Of a DNA stretch of 64,000 nt, positions 30,972 through 53,500 are shown piece by piece (the stretch's first letter is position 1; each line of letters starts with the position of its first letter). This DNA is from an uncultured Alphaproteobacteria bacterium (GTDB lineage: Bacteria; Pseudomonadota; Alphaproteobacteria; RF32; CAG-239). Below the pieces are notes generated by a model. That model did not search any database. It was not told the origin of the DNA and was given only the letters and a program-made list of their open reading frames with translations. Location: contig CALXWE010000005.1 in the NCBI GenBank assembly GCA_944392295.1, positions 1 to 64,000 of the forward strand. The letters are read 5' to 3'. The position numbers were made by a program, and so were the translations under genes.

Positions 30972-31715
30972 TCATTTTCCAAAAGCAATGTTCATGTAAC
31001 AAGTGGTGGATTGGGAATCACAAACTTCACAACGCTCGTGCATTTTGGTTATATTCAATTTATTAAGTTTTTCAGAATAATAATTGCTTTTGCCGCCGGA
31101 AATAAGCCATTCCCATTTTTCCCCTTCCGAAGTTCCGCGTCTGAATTGCAGATGAAGTATATCCTGATAAAATTCTTTGGCGGTTTGTAATATATTAAAG
31201 CAGCTGTCGCGGCCGTTTTGAGTATTATCAATCGTGATGCGAACACCGAGTGATGGCGTACTTGTGCTGTAAATGTAATATTTGGTATGTAAAACATCAT
31301 AAATACTATTGGTGTCCGGCCGGCCGCTGGATGTCACTCCCTGCATGGTTGTCGGAAAAGCATTCAGTTTCCAGAAAATGGATGTGTTGGCACATTCATA
31401 TGCAGCGTTGCACGTAAAAGCATTGGGCGTGTGTAAAAGCTCAATCATATTATTAAAAATCAGATTGATTTGTTCGGTCTGTTTATTGAGCTTGTATTTC
31501 ATCATCGCTTTGGAATAACCGCTCATGGCACCAACCGATAAGACGCCGATGATGGCAAGAACGCCCAACATCTCCACCATACTTCTTCCGGAAAAAGTCG
31601 CATCTACTGGCAATTTTGCTCCTCGTGTACCTTTTATTGTACACGTCGTCACAAAATTGCTGCGTATCTGCATCTTTTTACGAAAGATTGAACGCCAAAG
31701 TTCATTAAATTTCAT
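30972..31715 (-). CDS. Type IV pilin-like (pseudopilin) protein with extended leader
   Basis: The 247-residue protein contains the prepilin pattern G-RSMVE followed by a hydrophobic helix (MLGVLAIIGVLSVGAMSGY) and KYKLNKQTEQ, almost identical to the protein at 52886. Cleavage after Gly43 by prepilin peptidase is expected, leaving Glu5. The C-terminal domain is variable and ends with a CxxCxxxxxxC cluster (ERCEVCDSQSTTC), also shared in spacing with the 52886 protein. Relative to that protein, 36 residues are inserted after MKFNEL; they are encoded by a palindromic element (31590-31697) and lie in the part removed on maturation. CGGAGG precedes the ATG. Confidence 0.85.
   Translation of the reverse strand: MKFNELWRSIFRKKMQIRSNFVTTCTIKGTRGAKLPVDATFSGRSMVEMLGVLAIIGVLSVGAMSGYSKAMMKYKLNKQTEQINLIFNNMIELLHTPNAFTCNAAYECANTSIFWKLNAFPTTMQGVTSSGRPDTNSIYDVLHTKYYIYSTSTPSLGVRITIDNTQNGRDSCFNILQTAKEFYQDILHLQFRRGTSEGEKWEWLISGGKSNYYSEKLNKLNITKMHERCEVCDSQSTTCYMNIAFGK
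31590..31697 (-). repeat. In-frame palindromic element inserted in the pseudopilin leader
   Basis: The insert is 108 nt (36 codons, no stop). Its core 31592-31679 is an imperfect palindrome with nested matching arms: AAAAAG..GCA (31592-31603 against 31669-31679), GCAATTTTG (31610-31618) against CAAAATTGC (31652-31660), and CGTGTAC (31624-31630) against GTACACG (31639-31645), with an 8-nt loop. The paralogue at 52886 has MKFNEL joined directly to GRSMVE. In size, palindromy and in-frame insertion it resembles Rickettsia palindromic elements; homology to them is not claimed. Confidence 0.8.
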
Positions 31716-31790
31716 CTAAAAACCTCCGAGTTTAGTTCGTTAAAGGACTTTAAACGAAATCATAAACCGTTTTTTTTTTTTGCAACTTTA
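31716..31790 (-). promoter_or_regulatory. Pseudopilin promoter/leader, copy B, with 12-nt A tract
   Basis: On the minus strand TTGCAA (31780-31785), an A tract of 12 (31770-31781) and TATGAT (31759-31764) are separated by 15 bp. A ~42-nt leader ending CGGAGGTTTTTAG-ATG follows. The block is nearly identical to 53501-53586 and to 1-50. Confidence 0.65.
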
Positions 31791-52885: not shown

Positions 52886-53500
52886 CTAATTATTATAATA
52901 ATCCCAATTAACAAAAACATGACATCCTTTCACACCCTCACATACCCGACACATATCATCCATATCAGCGATGGTCATATCGCGTAAGCAGTTTCCTTCG
53001 GAGCATAAGGCGTCACCATACTTACGATCTAAAGCATCAACAGTATCATCGCTATTATAACGGTGTATATAGCTAAAATCAATTAAATGGCTACGTTCTT
53101 TGGCAAGAGCTAGTAAATTGCGACAAATTTCCATATTTAACTCTGAGTTATTAGTAATTTTAATACCTAAAGCAAATCCCGGGTGATGATTTTCAATCCA
53201 AATAGAGGAGTTAAATACATCAAAAACATAGCTACTTCCGGCATTGTTTTTCATACCATCGGGTATGGCATTAAGTTTTACCAGTAAAGGGATAAGCATT
53301 TCAGAGTTATCGTTACGTAATTTTTCAGTATTTATCAAAGTATAATCCAAAAGTTGAGATATTTGCTCGGTTTGTTTATTAAGCTTATATTTAGTCATGG
53401 CTTTAGAGTAGCCGGAAATAGCCCCGACGGAAAGTACACCGATAATGGCAAGAACGCCCAACATTTCGACCATAGACCGCCCAAGTTCATTAAATTTCAT
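52886..53500 (-). CDS. Type IV pilin-like (pseudopilin) protein
   Basis: The 204-residue protein begins MKFNELGRSMVEMLGV, with a six-residue leader, prepilin cleavage expected after Gly7, and a hydrophobic helix. After KYKLNKQTEQ the sequence diverges from the paralogue at 30972 but keeps a terminal CxxCxxxxxC cluster (DMCRVCEGVKGC). Such proteins assemble into pili or secretion pseudopili; which one is unknown. The leader is a conserved element (53501-53586). The DNA of the first ~70 codons is far more similar between paralogues than the rest. Confidence 0.85.
   Translation of the reverse strand: MKFNELGRSMVEMLGVLAIIGVLSVGAISGYSKAMTKYKLNKQTEQISQLLDYTLINTEKLRNDNSEMLIPLLVKLNAIPDGMKNNAGSSYVFDVFNSSIWIENHHPGFALGIKITNNSELNMEICRNLLALAKERSHLIDFSYIHRYNSDDTVDALDRKYGDALCSEGNCLRDMTIADMDDMCRVCEGVKGCHVFVNWDYYNN

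Follow-up and report, generated by a model that had tools for sequence, protein, structure and literature searches.

The first 64,000 nucleotides of contig CALXWE010000005.1 from an uncultured alphaproteobacterium (the window) contain a prepilin/pseudopilin-like gene whose leader carries a 108-bp imperfect palindrome, read in frame as 36 codons. We compared this element with its copies in the 1.43-Mb source genome and in other genomes, which are represented by one genome per species, are mostly draft metagenome assemblies, and have genes called as open reading frames (ORFs). The results make it probable that the element is a non-autonomous, mobile and structure-conserved palindromic repeat of one alphaproteobacterial family, with its home at gene 3′ ends and with in-frame entry into prepilin leaders.

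A structure-conserved palindrome in a prepilin leader

The host protein begins with MKFNELWRS-IFRKKMQIRSNFVTTCTIKGTRGAKLPVDATFSGRS-MVEMLGVLAIIGVLSV, in which IFRKKMQIRSNFVTTCTIKGTRGAKLPVDATFSGRS is the 36-codon insert and is followed by MVEML, whereas the paralogue at 52886 begins with MKFNELGRS-MVEMLGVLAI and lacks the insert; another empty paralogue site reads GAACTTGGACGGTCA|ATGGTCGAA. A preliminary description of the window had noted the extra in-frame codons relative to this paralogue, and the difference is exactly 108 bp. It had placed the insert at 31590–31697, which is one of two equivalent registers that arise because WRS or GRS flanks the insert on either side; both the covariance model and the empty paralogues favour the other register, 31581–31688, which is shifted by 9 nt. 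The pilin-like identity of the host is assigned from its N-terminal motif, with the family models N_methyl and PilS giving sub-threshold matches only.

The minus-strand RNA of the window copy folds into one long hairpin (−45.2 kcal/mol, z = −8.3; 0 of 200 shuffles matched this energy) that contains all three nested arm pairs of the preliminary description. We aligned 22 copies of many genomes, the window copy included, and built from them a covariance model (R1; 108 positions, 35 pairs). The common architecture runs from an outer arm through TRCGMMG, 11 nt, CGACGTGTAC, a loop of 6–9 nt, GTACACGAG, 11 nt and CMAGYA to the other outer arm, with near-invariant spacings between these motifs. The arms covary heavily, with both-side changes in 23 of the 35 pairs; fixed, by contrast, are the spacings, the internal loops and the apical CGTGTAC/GTACACG stem. 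Paired cells amount to 94.4%, compared to 73.2% after shuffling and 35–53% when the columns are slid by 1–3, and the covariation score is 0.576 versus 0.166 for shuffled alignments. Pairing is almost entirely Watson-Crick (2740 of 3150 cells, with 127 G.U and 83 A.C), which fits palindromes at the DNA level; using the G.U and A.C counts on the conserved strand as a test for an RNA strand proved too weak and non-independent. The window copy scores 102.7 bits with the model but was itself one of the training sequences, and independent support beyond chance comes from the 11 full-length copies that BLAST alone finds in the source genome. A search of Rfam 15 gave few matches, every one below the gathering score, and the element is not in Rfam.

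Template-switch correction of quasi-palindromes could give covariation without selection. Such correction would, however, erase the conserved internal loops, and the loops are therefore probably recognised by something.

Copies across the family and at gene 3′ ends

BLAST with the 108 bp detected the core of the element in 37 of the 176 genomes searched, and the covariance model extended this to 84 of 101 genomes of the host's family, one genome of the same order and, weakly, two others. Copies reach at least 22 per genome in the covariance-model search, where a scoring limit capped the count, and the three genomes of the host's genus gave 20, 34 and 31 matches. Copies from different genera are never more than 82% identical, whereas those within one genome reach 95–98% identity, also at different genes, as at the FadL and OmpA gene ends of genome G004 (95%). 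Tandem arrays that include truncated units are common among the loci; four of them combine a single complete unit with units that have no 3′ outer arm. The matches outside the family (G101, G111 and G150; E 3e-9 to 3e-4) may be old members, transfers or chance.

Outside the genus g1, most copies lie between genes, and all of the 82 non-pilin copies that we examined are intergenic or at gene ends. In 59 of these 82 copies, the element's 3′ edge is no more than 20 nt away from an opposite-strand stop codon that closes an open frame of 90 codons or more, compared to 5.1% of random edges and to 5 of 82 for the element's other edge. The distance from stop codon to edge peaks at 0 (19 copies), with 46 copies within 4 nt, and nine more copies use a stop codon 10–12 nt inside the arm. 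Orientation is uniform at these 3′ ends, the conserved strand being antisense to the host genes, while in pilins it is sense. By sequence inspection, the host genes include pnp, dnaK, pgk, rho, infB, clpX, kdsB, recR, mutL and ileS, among others. TA is present at both ends of many, though not all, 3′-end copies. A third palindrome type, GTCATGTAC..GTACACTCC, whose tip also contains GTAC, was seen behind pnp, pgk and other genes (six loci). In genera g7 and g2, 4 nt separate the element from the start codon of a downstream yidC-like gene (five loci), and in g7 a probable ribosome-binding site of this gene, AAAGGA, lies inside the outer arm.

Orthologous gene ends can be filled or empty within a single genus. 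The end of a FabG-like gene is filled in G004, G045, G076, G084 and G097 and empty in G018, G036, G052 and G060, where an ordinary terminator follows after a short spacer, and the pnp and pgk ends likewise occur in both states. We considered insertion into the loops of pre-existing terminators, given that the outer arms differ by site; this was unsupported, the empty orthologous sites showing an ordinary terminator of unrelated sequence slightly downstream.

The same observations bear on whether the hairpin is instead a cis-acting RNA, kept for a function in the transcript (as a terminator, 3′-end stabiliser or RNase target or, in pilins, as a translational brake near the start codon) and spread by ordinary duplication and recombination. 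Such an RNA would fit the covarying stems and their conserved internal loops, the location at gene 3′ ends with outer arms of AAAA/TTTT and, in g7 and g2, the overlap with the probable ribosome-binding site that immediately precedes the yidC-like gene. It would not be expected to be present or absent at orthologous gene ends of one genus, to have its conserved strand antisense to 3′-end host genes and sense in pilins, or to recur as near-identical copies at unrelated genes; furthermore, few pairs are G.U (127 of ~3150 cells), and these show no mRNA-strand bias at 3′ ends. We regard a purely cis-acting RNA as possible, but clearly less likely than a mobile repeat.

In-frame copies in pilin leaders

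The source genome has 52 pilin-like genes; their N termini are near-identical and their C-terminal parts highly divergent, and several stand in tandem. All 11 BLAST copies lie directly after pilin-like start codons. The covariance model adds one pilin copy in another frame (C17:4109) and two non-coding copies (C4:29223 and C17:4894), so that 12 of 14 strong copies are in frame in pilin-like genes; six weak matches represent a second palindrome type. The element is thus neither a single occurrence nor a conserved part of all orthologues, two outcomes for which the preliminary description had allowed: most paralogues are without it, and of 37 leaders read, 20 have a short leader of six residues, the others carrying the element, the second palindrome type, both, or a remnant. 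This second type (TTTTAGYGTAC..GTACRTGAA) was seen in frame in pilin leaders at seven loci, alone or behind the first; at one of them (L004), which has one A fewer in its A run than another (L006), the frame is broken. Several contigs of the source genome (G000), G001 and G002 end in or near element-bearing pilin leaders (four loci are examples); the repeats thus probably break the assembly, and the copy numbers would be underestimates.

The pilin copies of genera g1 and g3 are flanked by GRS on one side and MVE (or MIE) on the other, and G001, G002 and G018 carry further in-frame pilin copies. Two frames are used in g1, giving peptides of the kinds ...QIRSNFVTTCTIKGTRGAKL... and ...GADAQPCLSDVYKNGTRAKRRQ..., and G018 (g3) also uses the second kind; between the two frame types, DNA identity is 65–69% and peptide identity 19–36%. 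A single leader can contain a stack of as many as four palindromes (G001:C1:68331-68684, in a 399-aa protein). The ratio of nonsynonymous to synonymous change (pN/pS) is 0.77 and 0.87 for the element peptide versus 0.15 and 0.16 for the first 37 pilin codons behind it, values that come from few, related copies; the element evolves almost neutrally as a peptide. We therefore reject the notion that the insert is an ordinary conserved part of the prepilin, such as a long signal or leader peptide. Its in-frame position in several paralogues would fit that notion, which is nevertheless extremely improbable in view of the empty paralogues with their six-residue leaders, of related DNA being read in different frames, and of a pN/pS of about 0.8.

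The four copies compared between paralogues of the source genome differ by 0.12 within the element (0.125 at third positions), by 0.31 in the 30 nt before the start codon and by 0.62 at third positions of the adjacent pilin codons. The element is thus less diverged than its host genes, and is either younger than they are or homogenised or constrained independently of them. These values, although from four gene copies, speak against a single entry into an ancestral pilin, after which the coding copies would have been passengers of pilin gene duplication. Such a history would account for the in-frame copies of this type in the source genome all occupying the same site, and for variants common to neighbouring pilins (C4:30177 and C4:31978), but it would leave unexplained that the same site holds different frames, the second palindrome type and different stacking orders; we consider it rather unlikely.

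With its terminal GRS, the insert restores the cleavage site G|RSMVE. The genome encodes a prepilin peptidase (PF01478, E 8.6e-19) that, judging from its presence and the rebuilt site, would be expected to cut there, in agreement with the proposal of the preliminary description that the insert lies in the leader removed by this enzyme. We also considered whether the outer arm arose by inverted duplication of the target GRS codons; this was unsupported, the empty site aligning with the left GRS while the right GRS belongs to the insert.

Taken together, we propose that the mobile repeat usually resides at the 3′ end of a gene, where it would abut the stop codon and form the hairpin of a terminator-like 3′ end, and that its movement may depend on an enzyme that acts in trans and reads the hairpin. 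Prepilin leaders would have been invaded in at least two genera, in frame and between GRS and MVE. The extra peptide would be tolerated there, since the leader should be removed and the insert's new GRS restores the cleavage site, and the element could then have spread over ~50 paralogous pilins by further movement or recombination, sometimes stacking. More tentatively, and with considerable doubt, it might represent a class of elements recognised by folded shape (fixed internal loops, an apical GTAC stem and free arms) that enters precisely at stop codons and builds prepilin leaders by in-frame palindrome accretion.

Several observations weigh against the reading as a mobile repeat with in-frame entry into pilins. 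No mobilising enzyme was identified; the empty pilin site GGTCA|ATGG shows no target-site duplication; coding copies are found in pilin leaders only, none of the 82 non-pilin copies examined being in frame in another gene; and no transposition event was observed between strains, each species having one genome. Within pilins, gene conversion or leader exchange could give the spread without transposition.

The features of the window are collected in Table 1. The upstream block listed there may act as a promoter; in the form TTGC-A12-CGGTTTATGATTT it is common to most pilin leaders read, with the A tract between possible −35 and −10 boxes. Phase variation of such a promoter through poly-A length was considered and is unsupported, the tract being 12 in 19 of 22 leaders.

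Table 1. Features of the prepilin locus, its palindromic insert and the empty paralogue in the window.
Feature	Position	Strand	Basis
Prepilin/pseudopilin-like host gene, 247 aa	30972..31715	-	ORF
108-bp palindrome (36 codons), inserted after prepilin codon S9 and before M	31581..31688	-	Covariance model R1 match 1-108, 102.7 bits; empty paralogues
Outer arm TCTTTCG, copy-specific	31681..31687	-	Fold; covariation
Motif TRCGMMG (here TACGCAG); TAC pairs with GTA, remainder internal loop	31660..31666	-	Alignment
Inner arm GCAATTTTG, covaries among copies	31652..31660	-	Alignment, covariation
Apical stem 5′ half CGTGTAC, near-invariant sequence	31639..31645	-	Copy alignment + fold
Apical stem 3′ half GTACACG	31624..31630	-	Copy alignment + fold
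Inner arm partner CAAAATTGC	31610..31618	-	Alignment, covariation
Motif CMAGYA (here CCAGTA)	31605..31610	-	Alignment
Outer arm partner CGGAAGA, overlapping the GRS codons of the restored cleavage site G|RSMVE	31584..31590	-	Fold
Pilin-family upstream block TTGC-A12-CGGTT-TATGAT, promoter-like	31759..31785	-	Conserved in pilin leaders
Paralogue without the element, empty site GAACTTGGGCGGTCT|ATGGTCGAA	52886..53500	-	ORF + sequence comparison

Relation to known palindromic repeats

Protein-coding palindromes have so far been seen as something peculiar to Rickettsia and Wolbachia. An apparently independent case in another alphaproteobacterial family would make in-frame palindrome invasion a recurrent event and would suggest what makes it tolerable, namely a leader that is cut off. 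With about a hundred genomes, filled and empty sites and two reading frames, this family makes questions raised by the Rickettsia palindromic elements (RPEs), such as what moves them and whether peptide or DNA is selected, directly testable. The precise position at stop codons might reflect a new targeting mechanism or the recruitment of mobile hairpins as terminators. In the open-licence papers searched we met no earlier description of the element, though one may exist elsewhere.

Two known systems with hairpins can also be set aside. Repetitive extragenic palindromes (REPs), moved by REP-associated tyrosine transposases (RAYTs) or other IS200-type Y1 transposases, and the bacterial interspersed mosaic elements (BIMEs) resemble the element in having hairpins at gene 3′ ends and in clusters, and conserved bulges add to the likeness. 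However, a Y1 transposase (PF01797) was not found in many element-rich genomes (for example G001, G004, G018, G021, G036, G045 and G047), and REPs differ in length and architecture, being short (14–40 nt; PMC12306157); an origin of this kind is very unlikely. Even less credible are attC-like integron recombination sites, although these would match the imperfect 108-bp hairpin and the GTTAGAC-like outer motif of some copies: an integron integrase (TIGR02249) scored above the curated cut-off in 0 of 54 genomes, the arms extend past the motif, and no cassette arrays were seen.

The nearest analogue of the 3′-end habit is SPRITE of Streptococcus pneumoniae, a terminator-like repeat with AAAA/TTTT ends that is enriched near gene 3′ ends and for which no target duplication has been established (PMC3049150). 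SPRITE is an 18-bp duplex with a U-rich tract in a Firmicute, whereas the element has 108 bp, folds into a multi-loop hairpin whose arms covary, and also has coding copies in frame. The miniature inverted-repeat transposable elements (MITEs) ERIC, YPAL and NEMIS are palindromes of 100–170 bp that are mostly intergenic, with some fused in frame to genes (PMC2229807). They have conserved terminal repeats and mostly target duplications, whereas our element has free outer arms, a conserved apical stem and internal loops; its outer arms are inverted but copy-specific, and terminal inverted repeats common to all copies, as expected of a MITE, are lacking. The QMITE elements of Coxiella burnetii are MITEs reported with reading frames joining protein genes (PMC10969869, PMC5896051); they are placed beside the element by description, and their host belongs to a different class.

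The RPEs and the Wolbachia palindromic elements are palindromes of ~100–150 bp that form long stem-loops, occur between genes and in frame within them, and spread by a mechanism that is unknown (PMC10969869, PMC2229807, PMC3767692). Judged from their descriptions, the element is like them in size, fold, in-frame tolerance and intergenic copies. RPE in-frame copies are found in many unrelated proteins, however, whereas we found those of the element nowhere but at one site of prepilin leaders, where they are read in two frames and can be stacked; its non-coding copies abut stop codons, and its host is probably not a member of the Rickettsiales. The suggestion of the preliminary description that this is an independent RPE-like element is thus upheld in part: the palindrome is conserved as nucleic acid, is read in frame and has copies at unrelated positions in the relatives, but the in-frame copies keep to pilin-like genes, and the dominant site is the stop codon or gene 3′ end. 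Since in-frame copies in many unrelated proteins were not found, we do not file the element as an RPE. By analogy, it is likely to be an independent counterpart of the protein-coding palindromes of Rickettsia, and it is best filed among palindromic MITE/RPE-like repeats.
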